A stretch of DNA of 44,335 nucleotides from assembly GCA_000310025.1 (NCBI GenBank), contig FN649738.1:1802102-1846436 (forward strand), in the 5' to 3' direction. The notes under the pieces are model-generated. The model ran no database searches and was not told where the DNA came from. It saw only the letters and a list, made by a program, of their open reading frames with translations. The position numbers and the translations under genes were made by a program. Positions within the stretch are counted from its first letter, which is position 1, and each line of letters starts with the position of its first letter. This DNA comes from Ectocarpus siliculosus (lineage: Eukaryota > Sar > Phaeophyceae > Ectocarpales > Ectocarpaceae). Shown here piece by piece: positions 2,270 through 42,700 of this stretch.

Positions 2270-5200
2270 ATGGAGTCTCCTCTCGCGGAGGTGGCGTCAC
2301 CTCCCGTGGAGGAGCCTCCTGGAGAGGAGCCTGGAGACGCCCACGGCGACGCCTGGTCGTGCCCAATCTGCTTCATGTGGTTCGATATGCCTGTCTCTCC
2401 TCCATGCCAACACACTTTTTGCGCCGGAGTGAGTGTACCAGAGATGTGTTGCAGCGTTCCCACCTTGGAGGACAGATCACTGGCTGTTCTCATTGCAGAA
2501 GCCTGGGAGCGGTTTTTGCCAGTTCCAGGAACCACCTTGGGTATATCGTTTACTACATGCCAACTCTGCCACACTGCTGAGGTCATGCCTGCCTTTGAAA
2601 AACTATATCTCCATGCTACCTTAAGGCATCCACAATTTGCGGTGCGCTGTTGTTGACAGTGTTTGAAGTCCGTCGTGAGGGCAGCGGCACACCGACAACG
2701 TCGAAGTGGGAACACGGGACCTTCGGGACCTGCATGTCCCCTGTGTAGGTGGGTTTGAAATACGAGACAGCGGCCACATTCACTTTGCACTACAACGTAG
2801 CTTCTGGCGCCGAGATTACCCTCCGGTACGTCTTGAAATGCTGCTCGACCATTTGTTATTAGAACGGCTCTTTCTCATGTACCGCGTTTCTTGTGCTCTT
2901 CGAATAGGGAACCATTCACCCCCGAAGTCGTTCAGCCCTCGGCTCGGATCTTTGAAGAGATGCTCAAGGCGACTGTCACGTGTCGGAATGGCGACTGCGC
3001 AGCCCAATTTTGCCCGCTACGTTGGAAGAAGCACCAGGTAAATCACTCCATCCCCGTTGGATCACCCTCATTGCATTCGACGTGTGGTTGTATTCGATGG
3101 GTGGAGGTGATCGTGTTTTAGATTTTGATCGTCTTGAATATTTGAATGTTTGCTGCCCTTTTGCCGTGTGCTTTGTCGGTCTTTGCCGGTTTCAAGGGAT
3201 GAAGCGATGTAATTTGACCAAGACAATATCGGCGTTGGGTCTGCCGGGCGTTGTCGAAGGGGACGAAAAAAGTGCTCATATCATAACAAGACGTCAGACT
3301 TGTATTTCCTCGTTAGGGTGATGTACAGTAGGAAGCTCCATTCACCGGCAGTGGCCCGTGAGCTGCAACAATTGCTCATGACATAAGACGTCAAAGCAAG
3401 CCCGGACGTTGTCTGGTGGTATGAGTTCACACGAGCAGCAATCCCTGAAGGCCCTGATGAAAACTCGCTTGCTGTTGCATTGCTCTCTTTCAACAGACGG
3501 CACAAAGGGGGCGGCACCTCCTGCGGAGAGGCCAATAAGACTCATCCCCCGATAGTTCTATCCCAGGGAACTGCAGCTTCCACGATAGCCTATTCCTTCC
3601 CTAAAGTCATCGTTCAGATCCGTATTCAGCAGCTTGCACGTGCTACAACAGCTCATGATCGAGCTTTGCTGTTTCATGTGCCCTTGGCAGGAGGAGTGCC
3701 CCTCGGCGGTAGTGCAATGCATGCACCACCTGGTGGGGTGCGAGTGGAAAGGCGCCAGACGGGATCTCTCATTGCACGTGGAAGGATGCGCGTACGAGAA
3801 GATTAAAGGCTTGATTCCTCGTGTTTCGGCCTCTCTGAAGCAGATTCACGCACAGGTTCGTAACAACGTCTCTTGGTCCGTTCTTTCTAGCTGCCAGCAA
3901 ACCGTGCTCCCGGTATGGAGTACGATTGGCCGAGGTAGTAACGCATCTAGTTGGAGTGGGCATTAATCTTGCTTCGAACTTCTTCTGCCTCTGCCCAGGT
4001 GCACCAACTAGAAGCCAGAGTTATGGCACAAAACGCTGCCGTCGCGAACACTCGCGCTCTGCTGGCACATCAACGACGAGCCGGATCGGTATTTCCGGCG
4101 GTTTATGCGCTTCTTTGGCGCCCTCCCAACTGGCGATTATACCAATCTCCTAGGCCGGTAAGAAACTGAGCGTATCCAGTACCCAGTATGCTCTTCCTTG
4201 TGCCTTGATTTCGACATGTATTGCGAATCTAACACTTTGGGCTGTCAGGTGCATGATTTCACACTACGGGTGGTACCTTCTTGTTATTCGCCACACGCCT
4301 AACCTCTGTTCCGTTTTTTGTCTGCTTGCTGCAGGGCGGTGGTGTCTTGTCCAACGTGACGCTCATCTGCCTCGCGCCCATCCTTTTCTTAGCTCTGTGT
4401 GGAGCTGGGGTGTTCGGTGGAGGCGGTGGGCTGGTGGTGGAGGAACGTGCTGTATGTTTGGTAGGGGTGGCTATTTTGGGCTTTGTGGCACTTCTGGAGC
4501 ACGACAATGAGTCTCCATATCACGAGTTGCAAACTCCTTCACTGCTCAAGGGCCTGGCAATCGGCGAGTTTTTGCTAGAGGGCACTGCGCGGTCAATGGT
4601 TTACTTCGCCCTGAAAGGACTGCCTGACTGGAAAAGGACGGCCGCCCTCCTGTTCCTGCTGGCCCCGCTCTTTTACCCAACCGTTGTTCAGGCTGTCCAC
4701 CGCTTCGAGGTGAGAAAATGCAACGAGTACAGATAGCGCCCGCACGTATGAACTTAGCAGTTAAGAAAATGAGACTCGAAAAAATCAGAAGCTAAGGACT
4801 TGAGCACCATTTGTGAGCCCGGTTAAGAACCCCCACACTAAAACCTATATAGCAGCCATTTGTAGCCCACAAGAGGATGATCAGCAAAATAAGAACCCCA
4901 GCCTCGGCCGAAACCAGAGGTTCTTAAGTGCGGGCGCCATCTGTATTTTCTGTTTCAACATTCAACCAGCGAGCTTTCTGCATTTTTTGGCATCAACAAC
5001 CGACCATCCTCTTGTACGCGCCAGGTGCAAGTCAAGAACGCCCACAACCAGGCACAACGCGCACGAGCCCAACCTCCCTTGCCGCCGGTTGAGCCAGTAG
5101 CTGTTAAGACTCACGACACGGTGGTGAACGGAGTTGTTCGGGGAACAACCATGCTTTTGATGAACCCGGTGCCCGCACTTGTGGGCGAGGTCTTGGCCAA

Positions 5201-6024
5201 ACTTGGTGTCTTTGTCGTTTCCGCTGCGCTGGGGCCAGAGAAGCTGGATGCCTTTTTGGAGCACGTGTGGTGAGTTTTCGCCCTCACCCTTCCTTTGAAG
5301 GAGGACCTTGGATTCCAATATAGTTGTGGAAATTACGCCGCGTGTCGACGCCGCTAACATCTTTTGGGACACGCATGTTGTAATTTCCAACGGATGGTCG
5401 TAGGTTGGTCATGAGCGCTGGTATTGCTCTGGACGACAAAGCACGCCTCAAGAAGCGGCACGATTCCATCTTTCGGGATCTGAGAACGCCACTACCGAAC
5501 ATGACGGACCGCACAACAAGGCGGCTCATCGCTGCGGTCTGCGTGTGCCTGTTCGCCACAATCGTGACCTTTTTCAGGTGAGCACCACCGTTCTGGCTTG
5601 GAATTGAAATCGTGTGTATCCCAGCGAACGTTTGTGGACGAAGGGGAGGAGCTGGTATACAGTATCGTAACGATTTCTGAACTTGAATGGTCTTTCGCTT
5701 GATTGAAGATTGGTCCCGTTGAGATGCACGACTACACTCAAACCCGAACGGCCGCTCCCTTGTTTCGTTGTGTTTTGTCGTCACAGAGATATCTTGCAAA
5801 TGGTGGGCTACAGCCGGCTCCTTCTCTCGGTCCTGGACAGCGCTCATTTCAGATGGGAGCTTCACATAGGTCGAGTAGTGATGGGATCACTCCAACAAAC
5901 GAGAACGAACCAGGACCCCAACTTCGCCAGGACCCGTGCACGTGACCTACTCCGTTCACGCCTGTTGCTGCTGTGGGTTGTTGTGGGGTCGTCATTTTTT
6001 CTACTTTTTATGCTGACTTCGTGA
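2270..6024 (+). CDS. RING finger / TRAF-type zinc finger protein with C-terminal multi-pass membrane region (9 exons)
   Basis: Proposed exons are 2270-2428, 2660-2748, 2908-3037, 3691-3855, 3999-4157, 4335-4709, 5025-5269, 5404-5577 and 5787-6024. All junctions keep phase and give about 577 residues. Residues 31-82 form a C3HC4 RING (CPIC, CQHTFC plus AGC, then CPLC), the E2-binding fold of ubiquitin ligases. Residues 108-166 form a TRAF-type zinc finger pair (CRNGDC, WKKHQEEC, GCEWKG, HVEGC then YEKIKG). A short helical segment follows at about 177-205. Hydrophobic stretches at about 242-263, 271-288, 336-356, 482-498 and 556-575, with a weaker one at 410-428, look membrane-spanning. The likely role is a membrane-anchored E3 ubiquitin ligase with the RING in the cytosol (inference). 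The final exon could instead be spliced at the GTGAGT at 6021, because the stop codon overlaps that donor-like site. The ATG at 2270 is the first in frame with the RING. Confidence 0.87.
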
Positions 6025-15912: not shown

Positions 15913-20829
<4,917 letters not shown>

Positions 20830-22874: not shown

Positions 22875-25800
22875 TTACAAACCCGTGGCATCTGATGCGT
22901 CATCGGCATCACAAACATCTCCGTCATCTTCTTCGTCTTCCCCCTCGTCGTCCGCTGGTCGTGCCTCGCCCGCAGCCCCACCCGCCTTTTTCTTCTTCTT
23001 TTTCTTTTTCTTCTTCTTTTTGCGAGTTCCCACGGGCTCATCAGGTAACCACACAATGTCATCTTCAAAGCCGAGCGCTCTAGCGTAGGCGGATCTGGTG
23101 AGAGTATGCAGAACGAAGCACGTGAGGGAACACGCAGCTCTTACGAATCGGATCACACAAGGGTACCTCAAGAGCTTCGCGTGTTGACTTGACCGCGTGT
23201 CGCTTCCTCTTCATACTTTCCTTCCCGTTCCCACTCTCTGCAGACGCGAAAGAGATACTAGACTAATCCCTAGAGCGCTACCTAATCCTGTGCAAGATTT
23301 TATTGTGAATTGAAACCTACGCGACGAGAGTCGTCAAGTCGCAACGGACTTACCCATGGTCGATTCCTACGTCCTCTGGAAGCGGCTGTTGTCCCAGAGC
23401 CTCTGGCCCGTTTGCGTAATACTGAGGCACCACGGGCACCTGTCATCACCCAGAACACAAAAATTTCGAGAATACCATAAAAAATACATGTAAATATCAT
23501 GATCATTTCAAGCATATGATCGGAAGGGTACAGACCGTAAGTTCTTGAAGAATGACGCCAGAGTATCTATGAGGAACATACCCTTCGGATAATATCTTTT
23601 TGAGGCAGGCTCGAATTCTTAATTATTCTGTGGGTAACCCAACAGCGACTATTGGTCATAGTGTGGGGTAACTAAGTTTATCTTATATTGAGACACCAGG
23701 TTCTTAACTCCAAGGTAGTACTTGGTGGCGCGTTTTGTTGGGGTTTTCCACGACGTAAACGATGCATACCGTTCTCCAAGACTGCTGTTGCTAAAAAGCG
23801 CTTTCCCGGTCACTAGATGTGCGGCTAAGAAAAATACGTAATTACCAGCACACCAAGAATACTGACCTCAAAGCCCAATCCAGGCCTTTGCTGCTCAAGC
23901 GTAGCCTCCCGTAGACTTCCCAAGAAATTGCGCCACTGCTCATGGGAGTTGAGGTAGTTCCGAAGGAACTCTGTCGGGGGCATTGTATCTGCCTGGAGGC
24001 GAATGGCGTTGCAGAGCTGCAGCACAAAACCCCTGTTTCCAGCACTCTGCGCGGGAAACATGAGGGATCCAAGTGAGGGACGATGAGTCTGGCCGCATCT
24101 CTGTACTGCTGCTCGCAAGAATCGCTTGTCTGCACTGGAAAACGTAGAAGGCATGCCATACACAGCGCCAACCCCCCGTGTGCGTTCATATCTGACGGAG
24201 TGGGCTAAACTCACCTTATCGCCGTCTGCGTGAGAGTCCACGAGGCGCGCCACCAGTCGCCCCTTCGATACCACCATCCGTAACGCGCCAACGTTGTTGC
24301 ATCTCAGCACCTTGAAAACAAGCTTGTAGAAGATGCTGTGGTACAGGTTGTTATGGGGATATCGGAAGAACCAGCTGCACAACGCCTTCCATAGCTCCAC
24401 TGGCAGGGCATCCAGCTGCTGAGGATCTCGATTCACGATCTCATATACAATACCGACCAGGACATACCGAAGCATCGTGAACGGACGCTTCACTTCATAC
24501 CCTGGATGTGCCACTGCTTCCGAAGTCTCTTCCGCTTGCCTGCCTGAAGGCAGCCGGTTGCGGCACACAGAGAGTTGGGTCGGGATACTGGATGGGCGGA
24601 AAGATGACATGGGGCAACCTCGTGTGCTGGCAAGGTTAGAATAAGGGCTGCGAAGATGTGACATAGTGGTCTCACAAAGAGAGGTGGTTTCAAGGCCGAA
24701 AATACGTCTATAAAACACCAAGTCATTGCATGCAAAAACACACGCCTGCAAATTTGGATAGATTCCATCGAAGAAAGCAGCTTGATACCAGCTAGCATCC
24801 AATCCTGTCCGAAAAAGTCCACGGGTGGCGTACCTGGACCCTTGTCATCGCAGTTGGAGACTGCGACGCAAAACTTCGGCAACCAGGTTCGTAGCTGCTC
24901 ATGAAGTAGCTCTCGCACAGAGCTCAGTCGATTTGGAACCACAGTAGTTGTTGGTTGCGAGTCATACATTGACTGAACGACGGGAAGAACACACGAGCGA
25001 TGGCAGAACGCGAAGTAAGCAAACATGCTCATTTCATTAGGACCGAATCACTTTCCAAGTTGCTCACACATGGCTAACTACTTTTTGGGGCCGGAAGGGA
25101 GCTGGCCATAGCAGGCAACCGCACGCACCGTGCGTGCGTTGACGAAGACGATATTCGCGTCGGCTGCCTTTTGCGTTATTCCCAGCAGAGTTCGTGCGCT
25201 ATCTGTCCGCCGCTCTAGTGGAAGACCTTGGTCAACCGCCATGGCTGCCAGCCCGTCAACCAGTTCCTTGCAGTACCCAATGGGTTGAAGCAGCAACTCC
25301 CCATTGTCGTCGGACGATAGTCGATCCACCACCTAAGGGCGAATTGATGCGAGTGGTAGTGATGTGAACCATACACGAGGGTAGAAGCATGCCGTCATCG
25401 CTAACCGAGCAGGCACGACACATGAGAGTTCGACTATGCATCCATGTATCGCAAAACCGGCCAAGCGACTAGGCAGGCGCGCATACCTCGAGGAGAAGGT
25501 CCGCACACGCCGAGGCGTATGAATCGGAGCACTCTCGATCGAAGATGTTCTCCGCAACCCGCAGAAGAAACCGCCAGTCTGCAAGACCAGAATACAACCG
25601 CCACTTGCTTGGTGCCGATGTCTGCGAGTAAGTCGGTGCGCGGACACGTATGATACATATCAGGTCATGGCTCCAAAGGCAGCAGGTACTGAATTTCACG
25701 CGAATAAGGCGAGCGCGAGAGTTTTAGCATTTCGCCGAAACACAGAAGCGTTTACCTGGTAGGTAGCAGCTGCGCCTGTCACCGCGCCTCCCACCGATGG

Positions 25801-30727: not shown

Positions 30728-33700
30728 TCACTCCATGAAAATGATGCCGTGCCTCTTCTTGCCGCTGGAGAGCTTCAATTCGTCCTTCCCGTCGAATGTA
30801 GACAGGTCTACAACGAAGCCCTCATCCACAATCTTTTGGTCGTTCAACTTCGCACCACCACCCTTGATCAGCCTCCGCACTTCACTCTTTGTCTTGGCCA
30901 GCTCTAGTCGAATGAAGAGATCGACAACGGCCATACCAGCTTCGGCCTCGGCGCTCTCTATTTTCGCCCTGCATGGATATACGCATGCGATGGGTGCGGG
31001 ATTCGGGAAAGGGGAAACAGAGGGACGGCTACATAAAGAACTTCACACAACGTTTCGTTTTGAGATCAACGCACGTGTCTCTCGGGCGCTTCTCTCAGTC
31101 GCTCACATCGCAGCACATCACACGCTCCCGACCGCTGATACAGGCCGGCAGTTGGATTCGGCAATCTTGCACTGTTTTCTCAAGAGCATTATATCGGGGC
31201 CATTCAAGACATACTACCATCAGATCGCTTACTAGACTATTTCGTGCTAACTGTCCGATCCCTGCCAACTCGACGATCCATGTGACAGCAGTGAACAATG
31301 TTACAGCGGCCGTGTTGTTATACACAGCTACTACGTGCGTTTCGTACAACAAGCGAAACACACACATACGGTGCAACAGTACGGCGGGGGATGAAATGCA
31401 GCGAAGCACAAGGTTCAACCATATACTACGCGGTGAAAACATAACTTCCGCCCAGGCCTGTTGTACACACAACACACGCACTGCTGTGTCATTTCAGAGG
31501 GTGCAGGCGCGGAGGCGACATCCTTAGAGACCAGTGGTGATGCTGCTGCTGCTGCTGCACAAAAAGGTCGTGGTACCGATTCTGTGTTTTTCCTGTGTTG
31601 CCCCCAGCCTCTAATTGAAGAGGATCCTGACTTGGGCAGAAAGGAGAAATCGCGAGATTGGGAGTATCTCCTGTCAGATAGACTTTGGCAGAACCACGGG
31701 GTTGCACGCTACTGCCCCGGCTGAAACACCGGGGTCAATCAGCATAGGAGACCACCGCGTGGGTACGCAAAACACAAGCGAGGAAGGAGTACTGTAGAAT
31801 TGGACAGCGTAGGACGGTTGCACCTAAACCACACGTGAAAGAGACAAGCACCGGACTGACAAAAAATGCCAGAGAATAAACAACGCGACAGTAGAAAACA
31901 GATGCCAAAGGGAGAAGAAGGAGAGAAGGCCGGGGTAGACGTGAGCTTGCTAAGAAAGCGGCACATGGCTGCCCGGGCGACACAGCGTAGCCACTCCACA
32001 CGGGTTACAACGTCCGGACTGCGGCCGTAAAGGGAGCCGAGGGTACGGACGAGACTACAACGTCTTGTACGAGGCCAACGAGGCTTGGCATCTGTGTGGC
32101 ATTCTACGGCTGCAGGAAGCAAGGAAGGCCGGAAGAACGGACTGTTCAGCAGCAGGGTTCAGGGTCTTCTGCTGTGGGAGCGAGATAGGCGGGCAACCCG
32201 GCGTGGGGCTAGCCGTGAAAGAGTCGATGTGCAGCACCGCCACCCATACTACCAAAGTATGCTGACGAGCGCCTGATGGCCATGCGGTTTGACGTGTCGG
32301 GCCAAACCGGAGCGGTAAACTTCGTACACACCTTGGCAACCAAAGGTTCACAAGGGTAAAACAATCTAAGCGTTCTGGATAGGTTCGAGAGCCTCGTACA
32401 GCGGATCCCATCAACAACGTGTGTATATTGCCGTGTGCCACGGCTGCTTCCCCAATTGATTCTTATTTCAAGTGCCGTTTGTGTCTTGGTACGATGGCGT
32501 CACGAACGGGGGGGTAGAAAGGTACTACAGAAGTGTACTGATGCTGAACACTCCAAAATCCTCCAGCCTGGCGAACCAACAATAACCCATCTAAACAACA
32601 GAAAAGAAAAATGGCCCGCATGCATACATTTCGACCAGATCTCTCTAGCCGGCAAGACACATGGCATATAACTTTTCGAATGCCCCCACAATCAATCCCT
32701 GTACTCGTTCGTGGTGCTTCTTCAAAGTTTGCTCTGCACCACCATCAGTGGTTTGGTTGTGAAAAATCGGGCTCAAAATAAGTTGCCGCCCGGGAGTATA
32801 TATATCATATATGTACCGATAAATATGTGTACCTGGCATATATTTGAAAAGTTTGCCTCTTGCTATGCATCTCCACGTTCATTGCGCTGATCCATATCGC
32901 GTGTCATCGCAATCTGGCCAACAGTACTTTTATTTTACTCTTCTACACTTCGCAGCGGGCCCAGCGAAAAAAACTGCTGTTGTAAACAAGTCTGGGCGCA
33001 TACACCTACGGTGTTGAACATCTTGTGTGCATTGTATTGTTTCGGATTCGAATATATTCGGGTCTCGTTGGAAATCTGCCGTCGCAAGAGAAACATCGCT
33101 GAAGCTCATTTTATCGAATTCTCACTGGCAACTGGCTGTTTGCTCGAGCTGGCTTCAATGTACGGTACGTGCGCGATGTTGTTTGATAATAAATATGCCC
33201 ACCAATAGTAAGACACACAACCCTTCTCTGGCAATGCGCATGCATGTGGTAATGCGTCACCCGCGGGAGGTTTGACACCCACGTCCCTAAGGGAGACCAT
33301 GTACATTTTACGGATGTACATACGTGAAGCATGCGGTGCGGGTGTGGTAAACAAACCCACAAAAATCCAGAAAAATGGATGCAACCAATGAGCTCCGTTA
33401 TTTTTATCGAGACAGACAAGGCATGATCCAAGAGCGAAATGGCACAATGGGTGGCCGGTTTTACGTCAGGTCAGATCATCACGAAACTGGTGTGGTAGTT
33501 AGCTCTCTGGGCGTAGCGAGTCTTGAGGTGTGGAGGTGTAGAGATGGGTGAATTCTAGGTGCGAGTGTCGGATGCGAACGAGATCTGCATGTGGGCGAAA
33601 AATACATAGTGCGGGTCGTTTGTTCACTTTTCTTGCGATGCGGACACGCGGACGTCAGCCTCGAAAAAACAAAAAATGTGGTGCACATGCATACCAACGG

Positions 33701-36700
33701 GCATATTGATCGAAACAGAGACACAGGCATGAGCGAGCCAAGAGCGATATGGCACAATACGTGGCCGGTTTTACGTAAGATCATCAGGACACTGGTGTGG
33801 TAGTTAGCTTTCTGGGCGTAGCGAGTCTTGGGTGAGGAGGCGTAGAGATGGGCGAGTGTGCTCTAGGTGCGAACACCGGCACACCCACTGCCATTAATTG
33901 CGACCAATTTCGGTCGGCAAAAGGACAATCATCGCCATCCGTGTGTAGTCTAACCCACCAATGATCGTTCGTTGTGATCTAGTGTGGGAGATGCACTACA
34001 GGGTCATGCGCATCGGGCACAGTGATCGCAATCCACAACAGAGAGATATATGTATGCTACTCGGGGTGTGTGCCATGCAGGCGCAGCTGATTCAACGCCG
34101 TGGTTGTGTCCGTGTGTGTGACCCGTGTTGGTGGAAAGTGTGCGTGTATGCTATGTGCCAGGCGCTGCGTGCCTCCCCCTAGTTCTAGGGGCATACTTGC
34201 TGGCACACAGCAGTGTAGGACATACAGCAGTGTAGGACACACAGCAGTGTGGGCCATACAGCTTCATTTGATCAAAGTATGGAAATTTCGAAGAATAATT
34301 TCTTTATTGCTTTTTTCGGGATAGCGCTGACTGAAACCCCAATTTGTAATTGGGGAATTGAGGTGATGGACGCGAACCCGAGCTGGGAGTAGTATGCAGT
34401 AGAGGGAGAGACTACCAGGAGGACGGGATTCCTGGCACCCGTGGGCGTGATTACCGAAACAACGGAGTTTCCCCCCCGGGGAGGGGATTGTTTTCGTTTC
34501 TGAAACCACACCCCCCGGGGGGAAATTGACGTACCGCGGGGGGTGTGGTTTTTTTTTCTAACGCTACCCCGGGGGGAAGCCCCCCCGGGGGGTTGTGAAA
34601 AATAATGATGGTCCACACACCACACACACAAGAGAGTGGCAAAACTGAGATGGATAGGTTTACGAGCAAGGTTTCAACAAGCAGAGGGAGGAGTAAGTAA
34701 GAGCAACGAAGGCGAAGAGAAAAAAGACAGCAAAAGGTACCATTGCCTAAGCTCATGCACAAGAATTCGCAGTTTGTCCGCAGGAATAAGCTATTTTTGT
34801 GGTTCGGTTCTACCTTGAGTTGTGAGATAGATCCAAAAATTAAAACGATTATTTTTCCCATTGTGCGCAAGGTTTCGTCAGCATGCTATGGTACGTTTCG
34901 GCTGACTCCAGGGATGATAAATGCAAGAAATAGACAAGAAAACGAAAGCATTTCACCCATAAAACAACGGCGAGGGCCACATGACAAACGGTACACCTAA
35001 ATCTCACTCGAAGCGTAGATCTGCAAATTAATTTTCCGTCCCATATCATGCTTTTTGTGCTCCGCGATGCAACAAAATCGACTCAGAAAATAAGGGAAAC
35101 ACTTCCTCCCCGGGGGGAACTCGTGGGAAACTGGTACCCCGGGGGGAAATTGAAGTACCCGGCGTGTGGAGACCACCTTCATAAAGGTAGAAACTCCCCA
35201 ACGTCTGTCGAGGACGATTCCCTCTTTTCACAATGGCGTTGACGTGAGATGTTAGGGTGTCTGCTTTTGGTTGTAAAAGACACGGGTACAAAACCCGCTT
35301 GTCACCAAAGTTTCTTCCGGAAAACGGAAAAAGAAAAACGGTGGGTGGGTCAAGGGAGGACACACTGCCTATCGAACTCGGAATTTCTGATAACGTGGCG
35401 GACGTAGCGAATCCGTAAAACACGTACAGAGGATTGTGAGGAAAGTGAATCGCCCCGCCGCCAGCCGGTCGGCTTGTGGTTACCCCAAGAAGTTTTCTCT
35501 TGCCTGGGAAACAAGAGAAAGTCTCGAAAAAAGGGGGGGGGAATGTGGAGACCACCTTCATAAAGGTAGAAACTCCCCAACGTCTGTCGAGGACGATGCC
35601 CTCTTTTCACAGGCGGGATCTTTTTTTTTTGTCGAAAACGATCTACCCCGGGGCTAATTCAACGAAACCATGCTTCCAAGCCGAAAAGGTAATGGGGGGG
35701 GGGGGGGGGGGGGTACTCATAGTCGTGCATGCCGTAGTCGTTAGACCATTGACCTCGCATCCCTACGAAGCCGGGACGGAGCACGCCGGGTTCTCACCGG
35801 ACCAGGCTCTCACATCACCAAGCGCGAAGCTCCGTGAGGTATTTGGCGAGTCGCATGAAGGGGGAGCTGCATCCTGCTAAGGGTGTTCGGCATCTTGTGC
35901 TTACTTCCTTGCGTACGGATGACAGTTGCGTATGACTTAATTTATTTTCTGGTGCTTTCACTTCCAGAGACAGTTGTAAGCACTGTGTAACTGCCTCGAG
36001 GATGCTTGACCATTTTAACACAACGTGGTGCGATCACCCCCCTTGCGCGGAGTGAGGGTTCTCCACCCCGCACAACATGATCTACTCAACCACCATTATG
36101 GTTACCGCAAAAAAAAACAGAGGAAAAAAAAAAACGGTAACCTGGTTGCCGAGTTCACGAGGTGAATTGGCTTGTTTTACAACGTCGTTGCCAAGCGACG
36201 AAAACCCAACCCCGATGGCAAACACGGTAATGGGGGGGGGGGGGGAATCTGTACTAAGGGGGGGGGAACTCCCTAATTTACGGTAACTGAACGAAAACAA
36301 CGAGAGATTGCTGACTTTCGCAACAGACAATAAAACCCATCACGAACAACTTCAGCACGCGCAAAGGGGGAGTTCCAAACACGTAAAACGGCGTCCCGGG
36401 GTACCGAGCGAGCGAGTTCAAATGTATAGACTACCAGGCGCACAATGACGCGGCAGGCATACCCCAGCAGCCGCTGTCGACCTCGGTCCGACTCGCCCAC
36501 AACAGCGCCGGGCCAAGCAGAAACAGCAGCAGTTAGACGACAGGGCTTGCAGAGTATCGCAATGGCGCATTGTCAACTGTTTCCAACACAATCTTGGCGA
36601 GCGAACAAACCAGCCACCTAACGCAGCACCCGAACCCGCGAGAGTGTTTACCCAAGCTATCCTTCAAGCAGGGGAGGCAGCACATCCGGTGGCGACACGG

Positions 36701-39700
36701 ATACCACGTGTGCTGGATGGTGTGAGACCCCGGAGTCAAGAGTAGCAGTCGAGGCAACTCTTGTCGCGCGACGGGAGGCGCGCAAAAAGATCAAAAACGA
36801 CCCAGCAACATTAAACATTCACGCTGCGTTCAAGGCAGCGCGTACAGCAGTCTGTGACGGTATCCATGCTTATCTGGGGAGGTATGCGGCAAGGAATGCG
36901 ACATGTTAGGCCTGAATATACACCTCGAGTCATCGGTAGGCGTTGGCGGGAGGCAATCCGGGGGACTGCAGTTCGGACACCCCGTCACCGAGGAGGTGAA
37001 ACAACAACCGGTGGCACCATCCACCGGATTTTTGGTATGTCTTGAGGTCGGTACCAATACTGGCGGAGACTAGAAGGGAAGCCCGGGGGATGCGCAACTG
37101 GAGGATTTTTTTTTTTTTTTTGTTTTTACTTCAAATCAGCGCTCACAGCACTAGTGCCGTTTTGCTCCAACCCGTGGTCACACAGAAGAAAGAGCCCCTC
37201 TCTACCCTCCCCTCCTGCGGCACTTTGCCTCCGATTTTATTGCGAGAAGAGTTCAGCAATCTCTTCCCTCTGTGTACACACGAACTAGCGCTATGCACTA
37301 AATAGGCCAGAAGCGGAAGCGAGCGAAAAACTCACTTTGCAAGAAAAGCTCGCTTACGCCGGGATTCGAACCCCTGACCTGACCTCTAGAAGGTTTCGCG
37401 AATACCAACTAGACCACCGACTATGGTTCTATCTGGCCATGGATCCTTCCCAGCGGAAGTAAGCACAATCGACAATCCCGACGAACCCATCTTCCTTGTT
37501 CACTTTTATACCACCCTCGCCGACGTGTGGAACAGAGGGGAGGTCTCACAATACTGGAAATAAATCAACCACCAAAGTGCTGTAGGTAGTCAGATCGATC
37601 GAATTGCAAATATTTACTTCTCTCGCATACTGGCAGGGCTCACGAAGAACAATAGTGGCCAACCGCCGCGGCGACTACTGCGAAGCTCACGACATCCTAA
37701 TCGACGAACAGTGAGGCTTCAGACCTGGTCGATTCAAGGTCGTGCTGGTCATAGTAGCAGCATACGTCGGCTCCAGGAGTTGGGGCGGAGGCAAAAAAAA
37801 CTGTACATGTACTTCGTCGTGGAAGGAGCTGGCCCGACATGGGGTGCCGGACGAGATAGATTGGAATAATGAGTTAATTCCACAACGGCATGCCGGCCCG
37901 GGTACGCATGCACGACTGGGAGCTCTGGCTGGTTCCAGGTCACGCAGGGACTTAGTACTGTTCAACGTTTTCTTCGTGGTGGCGATCGGGATCACTCTTG
38001 TGCGATTCAGCTAGGATGACGCTACTCTCGAGGAACCTCGAGGAGGAGGGCAATATGGTGAGAGGGCGGGGACTGAGGCATTGCTGGAACAAGAGCGAAG
38101 GGCAGCAAAGGGAATTTTGTTTGTCGACGACGCCAGCGTTGTATCGGGCTCATCCGAAGGGTTGGCAAGGACGATTACAGCTACATATCGTGGAACAGTT
38201 TGGAGCCTGTGGCCTGACAGTGCCTGAGACCAAGACAAATACTTTCTTGGTGCGGATACCGGAGAAGAAGCGGCAGCCGAAGAACTAACGATACCGTCTC
38301 TTGATCTTTGTGTTTCTCTTTGATATTTCAAAATACATGGTAGTTAGTCTGTGTCCACGGAAGGTGTCCGCGTCAGTTGGACCAGTACGGATACTGAGCA
38401 GAAGTTGGAACGGTCTGTGATGGGAACGAAGACAACATCTTGAGATCGATTTAGTGCGGATGGCGATATCAGCGGCCGCAAAGGTTGCACCAAGTTCATC
38501 ACATGGATCTGAGAGTTTACAGATATCCGCCCGTCGGATCGTGTCAGATTTACCTTGGAAGAGCTGCATTGGATCCCCCAACCCCTCCAGCGAACACTTG
38601 CTTGACAGTCTGGTGGATCTCCTTCAAGCACGCTTCCCCGTGAAGCAACTTGGTTGTTTCATCCGCGAGTACAATCTGGTCGCAAGGGTTTTGTGAAAAC
38701 AGCGCATACATTGACCACCACAGACAAGACACTCAGTTCGCGTTTGTTGGTCAGATACAACCGCTCCATCGAAAATGTAAGCTAGCCGTGTTGCGGGCAA
38801 AGAATAGCGCATGGGTGACTGCACACTGGGCACAGTACAAGGTGTTGTTATGTTGATGTGCTCCGTGATATGTTGGTTCCGTACCTTGGCCTCGTTGATC
38901 CCTGCCCCCGTGAGCTGCTCCAGTTTGAGTATTTCATCCATGGACAGCTCGGTGAACAGCTTCAAAAAACGAATGACATCAGCGTCATCCGTGTTACGCC
39001 AGAACTGTCACACGTGGCAGACGGATTGAGCTAGTTGAGACGGTGCTTGGATGACAACAAATCACAGCATCGTCTCGTGTCGGAAAATGGACGCAATGCT
39101 CGGCTTCGCTGGCGTCTGCAATCAGCTTGACTCTCACAGGGGTGTGCCTGCAGATCGTGTGTTTACCTGCCAGTAGTCGTACTCTGGAAGTTTTTCTGCG
39201 TTCAACCATATGGCGCCAGCAGCTGACTTCCCCATCTTCTTGCCCTCAGATGTGGTGATAAGAGGAGCAGTCAGAGCAAACAACTCTGCCTTTTCCACTC
39301 GCCGCCCCAAATCCACGCCGTTCACCATATTGCCCCACTGGTCCGAGCCGCCCATCTGCAAGACGCACCTAAAACAACCAGCGCAGGGTCAAAGTGTTGT
39401 TAATGTCTGCAGAGGTGCGAGATCATACCCCCCTTCCCAAAACGGGGCACAGGGAACACGGATATCGGAATTATTGTCAGATTGGACACCCACACAAAAT
39501 ATCGTTCCTGCAAAACAATTGTGGCCTCCCAGCCTCCTCCTTTTGGGTCAATACGCCGCATCAAACTTGCTCAATAAAGTTTGCCAACAGACCATGTGAA
39601 ACGTGGAACACAAACTCTTCGGTGGCACAGGTGCTGTATGCTACCGGTTCAACCGATGTAGGCATTGCAACCATCATCTGGTGTCTCGCATGCAAAAAAA

Positions 39701-42700
39701 ACGGCAGCGGATCCTCGTGCACCCTGTGTATTGAGCAAGATAGAGTGCCACAGAGGCAAGCTGCCGTTGACCGCACCTCAAGAAGAAAGCTTTCCAGAGC
39801 ACTCTCGAGGGTGCAGATTGCGCGACGAGCACCACCTGCGCTAACCGACCTAGCACATGTGAATGATGTGTGCTCGTCAACAGCTTCCTTCAAAACCAAA
39901 CTTATACTACTCCTCTTCCCGTACACCACCATTCGTCTTCCTGCATCCAATGATTGTACTTTTTGCCTCCGAGTGCCTGCGGGCCGCACGCGCGCGTTAA
40001 ATTGTTCCGTGTTCTATGCCTGAATCCTGCTGCATGTGGTAGTTAGGACACAACGACATGGAAAAGGGAACAGGGAACTCAGAGTTCTCTGTTCTCTGTT
40101 CCAGTTTCGGTCTAGAGGGATAGTACACGCCCTCTGCTGTACTACCTGCACCTACTTTACAGTTAAGGGAGAATACACCTCACCCGTAGCGACGGTAGAG
40201 TTCGGTGAAGTCGTACGCCTGCAGCAGCATATAGTTGAACTCCAAGAAGGTCAGGGGCTGCTCACGTTCCAACCGTAGGCGAACACTATCGTACGTCATC
40301 ATGCGGTTGATCGTGAAATGCGGGCCGTACTCTCGCAGAAAGTCGAGGTACGATAACTGGTTCAACCACTCGTTGTTATTGACGAGCTTGGCGTCCGTAG
40401 GGCCGTCCCCGAACGTCAGGAACTTGGAAAAAACGCTGGCGAGTCCGTCAATATTCCGCTGCAATCAAGGGGCCAGCCGTCGTCACATAGGAGGAGCAGG
40501 TCAAAGAGTGATTGGGCGGTACTTCCAACAGCAGTGGCTTTCCGTGACAAGACAGCACAACAATGATTCGTTCGAAGCACTGCATACACACTTTTCGTCT
40601 CTCCGCGCACCAAGCACCACGACACCAGATTGCGTCGTGGGCACCGCAAAAGTTAAAGTGGACGCTCTGGTCGCGGTTATAGTTAGTATAGTCACATCTG
40701 AATGATCTTCTGCATCTGTTTTCTTCCTTTATAGGACTCTCTACCGGGCAACACGGTCTTCTCATTGTGGGTGAGTTTAGATGAAAGTCTATCCGTCTCT
40801 TATTGTCGTTGAAATTTCAGGCGTACTCGGGACCAGCATGTGGCCCGCAGTGCACTGAGTCATTCCCACCTGGATTGCTGCATCATCGAGGAGCTGCCGA
40901 GCTTCGTCCTTTCCCGACGGATCTCCGATTTTGGTTGTACCCCCCCCTACAAGTACTATTGGCTGGTGGCCTGCCTTCTGAAGGTGTCGCAAGATCATAA
41001 TCTGTAACAGACTCCCAACATGGAGACTTCCACGAGAGAAGGCGTGCGGTGGTTTGGAAGGGAAGGCGTCTCGCATAAGAAACATCTGTACTTGGAGAAG
41101 CAACGGGCGCAAGTATAGCTTGGACTCTCAAAACCTTCATTTATACGAGAGGTTTCGAACAAGAGAGGGTAACGCCCCAACCAAACGAACTCGCATCAAA
41201 CCTGATGTTCTCTGTACCAAATGAGAGAGGATTATCGTAACCAGAACTTGGACTGCAAATATTTACTCAAAATCGCAACCAAATCACGAAGGGCTGTTAG
41301 AACGCTTCCCCCAACTGGAGCAGGGGATCAGGAATCGCACTTCAATATTGCGCTCAATTGTACAATAGTCATGTTGCATCCGAGGGCGTGCTGTTAGATC
41401 TTTCTAATAACCGAACAAACATATGGAAGCTGTGATTTGGACGAAGCACTCAACGATAGCCAATGCCGACGAGGGGGGGGTGCCGTGGTCGTTAGACCAT
41501 TGACTTCACATCTCTGCAATTCCGGGACGGAGCGATTTGCCCGGTTTTCGCCGGCTCAGGCTACGTTTTACAAGGGTGCTGTGCCAAACTAGATATGACA
41601 TGGGTTGATGGAGATCCCAGCGAATCAAATGTGTCGCATTCGGTAGGCACACTTATACTTCAACTGCCGCGAGGGACTTCGATCATTACGCGGTTGTGCA
41701 AAAAAGGCGGACCACATTCAGCGAACACGTCACTTCGTGTGTGATACACTTAGAGTAATTTCTGCCCATTATAATACAGGTAGAAAGTTCAGATGGAACA
41801 ACGTATAAGATTGTTCTCTAGGGCGTTCCAACTATCCAGTGCTCAGCGGACATGTAATGGGGTGTGAACTCTAGGGCCGAAGACCACAAGCTCACAGGAC
41901 ACACGGCATAAACTACTCCCTCCCTAACAGCATTTTTACAGCTCCATGCCCCAAGAGCCAACCCTACCTGGACCAATCCATCCTCGAACCTCACAGGCGG
42001 GGGTATTTTCGGTCTCAGTTTCATCGGGACGCACAAGTGAAGAAAATAAGCGTCCTCCCTCCACCAACCATGTTTGTATACGTGTTTCATGGAAGTCCGC
42101 TTCGCGTTCGTCGACCAGTTATCCCGAATTTAATCTAGCTGGGCCTTACGACGGTGGTAGGACCGTTGGACAACCAGGAGTTCTCGGCATTGCCGTCGAG
42201 TGCTTAACATACGAAATATTTTGCTACCCCCAAGTACGGTGGCGGTTGCAGGGCTACGCCTTGCGGGTTGATGGAACCACACCACACAGGTCGTCGAGTT
42301 ACTGTTTGAATGCCGTGCATGCGCGCCTCATGAAGTCTGGTGGGGCTGGTGTGTGATTAGGGCAGTAGTTACCCGTTGCGCAGGGTATGATAGTAACAGC
42401 TGTGAGTTCTCGAGATTTTTTGTCCAAGCTCGATTGAACGTAGCATCTCAGGAGTCCCACCGTCGTACCACGAATTATTTCCTTTACAGACTCTTGGCCA
42501 TCGCAAGCTACTCTCCTCTCTTGTATCCGAATTCTCCATCACATCCTTTTCCTTCGACGCAACAATTACGATGATACATTCTGTGGCACCTGTCCGCCGT
42601 TGCGTCGAAACCAAGGTAGGCCTTAACGACCTCGCCGGCCCGCAATTTCTCGTCAAGTCCTTCGACGTTTGTGCACTGGTGATAGAACCCTCGTTCAACA

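Follow-up and report, generated by a model that had tools for sequence, protein, structure and literature searches.

The gene predicted at positions 2270-6024 on the forward strand of the Ectocarpus siliculosus stretch analysed here (44,335 nucleotides, hereafter the window) probably specifies an E3 ubiquitin ligase of the RING type, 577 residues long and embedded in a membrane, in which a RING, two zinc fingers of TRAF-type spacing and a coiled coil are followed by a polytopic membrane domain. The evidence best supports a single gene that carries the RING, both fingers and a multi-spanning C-terminus. Given the spliced model, a RING and predicted membrane spans are present in one chain. The architecture looks uncommon, although the pairing of RING modules and membrane segments is in itself familiar.

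Gene model and coding signal

Reassembly of the exon chain from the raw sequence gave the features in Table 1. Its nine exons are joined over eight introns of 134 to 653 bases, all of which are GT-AG (8/8) with phases that agree, and the spliced chain holds 577 open codons followed by the stop TGA. The open frame that contains the start Met begins at 2258 and has no Met ahead of this one. Splicing is needed to keep the chain open, since readthrough of any of the eight introns meets between 1 and 15 in-frame stops. Both the in-phase exon chain and the phase agreement at 4157/4335, which a sequence-only reading of this DNA had used to tie the two halves together, are borne out. At this junction the donor is CCG/GTAAGA and the acceptor is TTTTTGTCTGCTTGCTGCAG/GGC (the slash marks the splice site); both are good, the acceptor having a good pyrimidine tract. 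Nine AG acceptors were listed between 4171 and 4500, and two of them, 4335 and 4443, preserve frame and phase, with pyrimidine tracts of 10/14 and 5/14, respectively. The richest tract among the nine is that of 4393 (13/14), but this acceptor is out of phase, with stops. Acceptor 5404, further downstream, has a poor pyrimidine tract.

Once joined, the 1031 bases of the membrane half have a period-3 strength of 11.7, a value that none of 2000 shuffles equalled, and the eight introns joined have 1.0, with 837 of 2000 shuffles as high. For each of the four membrane exons taken singly, no more than 5 of 500 shuffles gave as high a value. When open frames of at least 60 codons that pass a coding-like filter are ranked by period-3, the frames at 4257-4733 and 4893-5270 (+), which hold exons 6 and 7, come second and third. 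Two results count against this pattern. The RING half has a weak period-3 of 2.2 (86 of 2000 shuffles as high) and therefore rests on its domain matches instead, and the intron at 2749-2907 alone reaches 2.8, with 5 of 500 shuffles as high. A tblastn search of the gene against its own window gave a single match outside the gene (E 0.27), which indicates that there is no second copy in the window.

Table 1. Positions in the window of the exons of the predicted gene and of the intron between its two halves
Feature	Position	Strand	Content
Exon 1	2270..2428	+	Start Met and first five RING ligands, residues 1-53; Pfam RING match from residue 31
Exon 2	2660..2748	+	End of the RING (CLK...CPLC)
Exon 3	2908..3037	+	Linker and beginning of TRAF-type finger 1
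Exon 4	3691..3855	+	End of finger 1, finger 2 (3718-3789), beginning of the coiled coil
Exon 5	3999..4157	+	Second part of the coiled coil (until about 4064), then linker
Intron 5	4158..4334	+	Separates the two halves; retention would give a stop after three codons and a soluble 237-residue form
Exon 6	4335..4709	+	Clear TM1 (4356-4415), clear TM2 (4446-4502), marginal TM3 (4635-4697); hydropathy, period-3
Exon 7	5025..5269	+	Marginal TM4 (5175-5231); hydropathy, period-3
Exon 8	5404..5577	+	Clear TM5 (from 5522); hydropathy, period-3
Exon 9	5787..6024	+	Clear TM6 (5962-6018) at the far C-terminal end; TGA stop (6022-6024); hydropathy, period-3

RING, TRAF-type fingers and coiled coil

A complete C3HC4 RING with canonical spacing (C-x2-C-x11-C-x-H-x2-C-x2-C-x24-C-x2-C) is found by pattern at residues 31-82, and all eight zinc ligands are present. 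Two Pfam RING models score over their cut-offs, PF13445 with 39.5 bits (cut-off 25.2) and PF00097 with 32.4 bits (cut-off 21), and the remaining RING models listed score under theirs. The RING is followed by two fingers with TRAF-type spacing, C-x(4-6)-C-x(10-12)-H-x(3-4)-C, at residues 108-129 and 136-159, in which 8 of 8 metal ligands are present by pattern. The Pfam models zf-TRAF (17.5 bits) and zf-TRAF_2 (20.5 bits) both remain below their cut-off of 27, and Sina_ZnF, which aligns over the fingers too, is also below its own; the fingers are thus divergent. The sequence-only reading had described the RING and the TRAF finger as textbook, a description that fits the RING and not the fingers. 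Among PDB sequences the best match is TRAF6, over residues 28-139 (E 5.6e-8), followed by the RINGs of TRIM proteins and BRCA1. A match to rad18 (19.9 bits, cut-off 175) was set aside as due to chance or to the RING alone. At E up to 1, no Pfam match to MATH/TRAF-C or to a B-box was listed over the 577 residues. A search of the last 343 alone, at E up to 10, listed no MATH/TRAF-C either; at this threshold the HMMER filters remove most matches above about 0.1.

The earlier reading did not include the coiled coil, which lies after the fingers at about residues 164-203. Its heptad a and d positions are occupied by I164, I168, V171, L175, I178, V182, L185 and V189, a pattern equalled by 0 of 2000 shuffles of the stretch, where the score is a simple a/d hydropathy and the stretch was picked by eye before the test. 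The heptads are strong from 164 to 189 and weaker from there on as far as L203, where Q and T occupy d positions. They stay in register over the exon 4/5 junction (residue 181/182), which provides independent support for that splice.

Membrane half and rival explanations

The last 343 residues contain six hydrophobic segments by hydropathy, four of them clear and two (TM3 and TM4) marginal. These residues give six non-overlapping windows with a mean hydropathy of at least 1.6, a count that 9 of 2000 shuffles of them also reached. None of the 246 six-frame blocks of the window reaches six (one block has 5), where stops had been removed and the blocks overlying the gene itself retained. A rough insertion-energy scan retains four segments, at residues 242-261, 272-290, 481-499 and 558-576. 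The last hydrophobic segment stops one residue short of the C-terminus. Basic residues show no clear sorting between alternate loops, so that any topology drawn from these segments is tentative. AlphaFold2 run on exon 6 alone gave helices with low confidence (mean pLDDT 50.8), a model that is too poor for use.

The claim of a multi-spanning C-terminus of over 300 residues holds, with 343 residues and four clear segments. Of the five or more passes that had been proposed, four are clear, and a fifth and sixth are marginal and possible. Clear helices do occur in three exons (6, 8 and 9), as had been stated, but the membrane part covers four. For the joined protein, on which the sequence-only reading had recommended a domain and transmembrane prediction, the Pfam search gives a RING that passes and fingers that fall below the cut-off, and the hydropathy and insertion-energy scans give four to six segments. 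The proposed membrane E3 ligase is the natural reading of the joined gene model, and the earlier interpretation is supported in part.

The membrane half matches no family in Pfam at E up to 10 over the last 343 residues. Its one match among PDB sequences, to a ketose reductase, is at chance level (E 0.38), and a match to PhnI (E 0.049), which lies in the linker, was likewise attributed to chance. A viral origin was rejected because one scan of viral contigs for each half, RING and membrane, found no relative. A prokaryotic origin of the membrane half was rejected in the same way, on one scan of prokaryote genomes with this half; both kinds of scan need short exact peptide words and reach only close relatives. 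Since no relative of the same architecture appeared in the viral-contig and prokaryote scans, the joined model stands without support from conservation.

The absence of any relative of the membrane half from Pfam, PDB sequences, viral contigs and prokaryote genomes (apart from the chance-level PDB match) would also fit two neighbouring genes that the model has fused, one for a soluble protein of RING, TRAF fingers and coiled coil that would end near 4169 and another for a membrane protein. Such an arrangement agrees with the unequal period-3 strength of the two halves and with the stop met three codons beyond donor 4157, which makes a soluble product possible. It is nevertheless unlikely, and a separate gene for the membrane half is disfavoured. 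The open frame from 4257 has no Met ahead of its first hydrophobic helix, so that a gene beginning at 4335 would be without an ATG; the gap between the halves is just 177 bases; and the splice sites at 4157/4335 are good and agree in phase. The three poly-A-like words that were scanned, AATAAA, TGTAA and ATTAAA, are all absent from 4158-4334. The same stop can be read in terms of one gene with two products, a membrane ligase when intron 5 is spliced and a soluble RING-TRAF-finger protein when it is retained, and retention would indeed preserve the RING, the fingers and the coiled coil. However, the splice sites of intron 5 look strong, and some truncated product results from the retention of any intron, and this explanation is considered very improbable.

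There is also a slim chance that the locus is a pseudogene, or that the protein is a scaffold without ligase activity in which the RING is structural and partners are merely recruited to the membrane. A scaffold role does exist among RING proteins, for example in ZFPL1, but ZFPL1 has a variant RING (PMC4021871), in contrast to the eight intact zinc ligands found here, and the 577 codons run without a frame break.

Known ligases, proposed role and surroundings

The order of RING, zinc fingers (here of TRAF-type spacing) and coiled coil is also that of the TRAF family (TRAF2-TRAF6 and the Dictyostelium proteins TrafA-TrafE). TRAFs have been termed cytoplasmic adaptors (PMC6158389), and their layout has been given as RING, fingers, coiled coil and TRAF-C (PMC10181826). 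The Ectocarpus protein differs in that two fingers were found and a predicted multi-spanning membrane domain stands in place of a Pfam MATH/TRAF-C match. TRAF7 is also described as being without a TRAF domain, and TrafE as being recruited to damaged compartments (PMC10181826). TRIM13 and TRIM59 also have a RING, a zinc-binding motif and a coiled coil, followed by a hydrophobic C-terminal region (PMC4021871); the term "TRAF-type" is absent from the main text of that paper. The two TRIM proteins have B-boxes, whereas the protein described here has fingers of TRAF-type spacing. TRIM13 has few hydrophobic segments, compared with the four to six of the present membrane part. TRIM13 and TRIM59 represent a parallel design, and membrane RING ligases are common. 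The front of the protein is TRAF-like, but because neither a MATH match nor a B-box was found, the protein is assigned to neither the TRAF nor the TRIM family.

SYVN1/HRD1, AMFR and MARCH6/DOA10, polytopic ligases that act in quality control, also combine a RING with membrane spans. Table 4 of a human catalogue puts all three in its transmembrane row and none in its ZnF_TRAF row (PMC2198940). That table, which according to its authors is not exhaustive, holds 46 transmembrane RING genes and 8 with TRAF-type fingers, and none of the 8 is among the 46 (PMC2198940). A survey of Arabidopsis lists the TRAF-like and the membrane-anchored RING groups separately (PMC6118397). Among the PDB chains searched, no sequence match to SYVN1, AMFR or MARCH6 was obtained outside the RING. 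The RING of SYVN1 and AMFR also differs in position from that of the present protein. The titles and abstract starts among the matches listed from open-access PubMed Central include no RING-TRAF-finger protein with several membrane spans, which is no proof of absence from print. The peroxisomal proteins PEX2, PEX10 and PEX12, in which the RING is C-terminal, were rejected as identities since no PEX match is among the Pfam matches listed and the RING placement differs.

If the predicted membrane ligase is made from one transcript, as the gene model suggests, a working mechanism can be proposed. By eye, the N-terminus shows no signal sequence, and the RING and fingers would therefore face the cytosol. 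The periplastidal E3 ligase ptE3P was set aside as an identity on the same feature; no matching paper on it was found in open-access PubMed Central text. In TRAF6 the coiled coil and the fingers bring RINGs together. Here these parts may keep the protein oligomeric, thereby pairing the RINGs, and the RING would bind a charged E2. The membrane domain may anchor the enzyme in an endomembrane, for instance the ER or an outer membrane of a complex plastid, and probably selects substrates in or near that membrane.

It is possible, although doubtful, that the protein represents a class of algal E3 ligases that has yet to be described. In such a class a membrane domain that belongs to no known family would hold the TRAF module of RING, fingers and coiled coil permanently in an endomembrane, possibly that of a complex plastid, and the module would serve receptor-free TRAF-like signalling or quality control at the membrane. 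TRAF proteins generally reach membranes via receptors or damage. A TRAF-like ligase with its own multi-spanning domain would, if the proposal is true, couple the module to membranes differently, and the membrane half, which has no Pfam match and one chance-level PDB match, could define a new domain family.

Ten open frames of the surroundings were scanned against Pfam; at E up to 0.01 six of them have a match, which for two stays below the cut-off. ARAGORN found no tRNA. The frames at 18431-18799 and 18935-19333 (-) match the Pfam flavin amine oxidoreductase family, the second alone above the cut-off, and the second also matches a chloroplast phytoene dehydrogenase in the PDB (5mog, E 4.3e-43). 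These are pieces of a plant-type phytoene desaturase (18431-19333, -), a gene that by eye continues on both sides, at least from about 20,400 down to 16,800. The phytoene desaturase together with the intron-split genes points to the nuclear genome of a photosynthetic eukaryote. Pieces of a tyrosyl-tRNA synthetase are spread over about 10 kb (30731-41127, -), with the catalytic part at 40183-40464 and 40792-41127 and an S4-like C-terminal part at 30731-31042, all on the reverse strand; either very long introns or two genes would account for this spread. The exon at 40183-40464 (-) comes first in the period-3 ranking of open frames described above. The match of a 339-codon open frame at 23828-24844 (-) to SAPS, the SIT4 phosphatase-associated protein, falls below threshold (19.8 bits, cut-off 25.6). 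Upstream of the predicted ligase gene, positions 14-1728 hold nested inverted repeats with one pair of arms at 184-442 and 870-1128 (96% complementary) and a second at 14-194 and 1344-1524 (87% complementary). Three direct copies of 107 bases lie in the same span, at 1124, 1351 and 1570, and the whole may be a palindromic mobile element.
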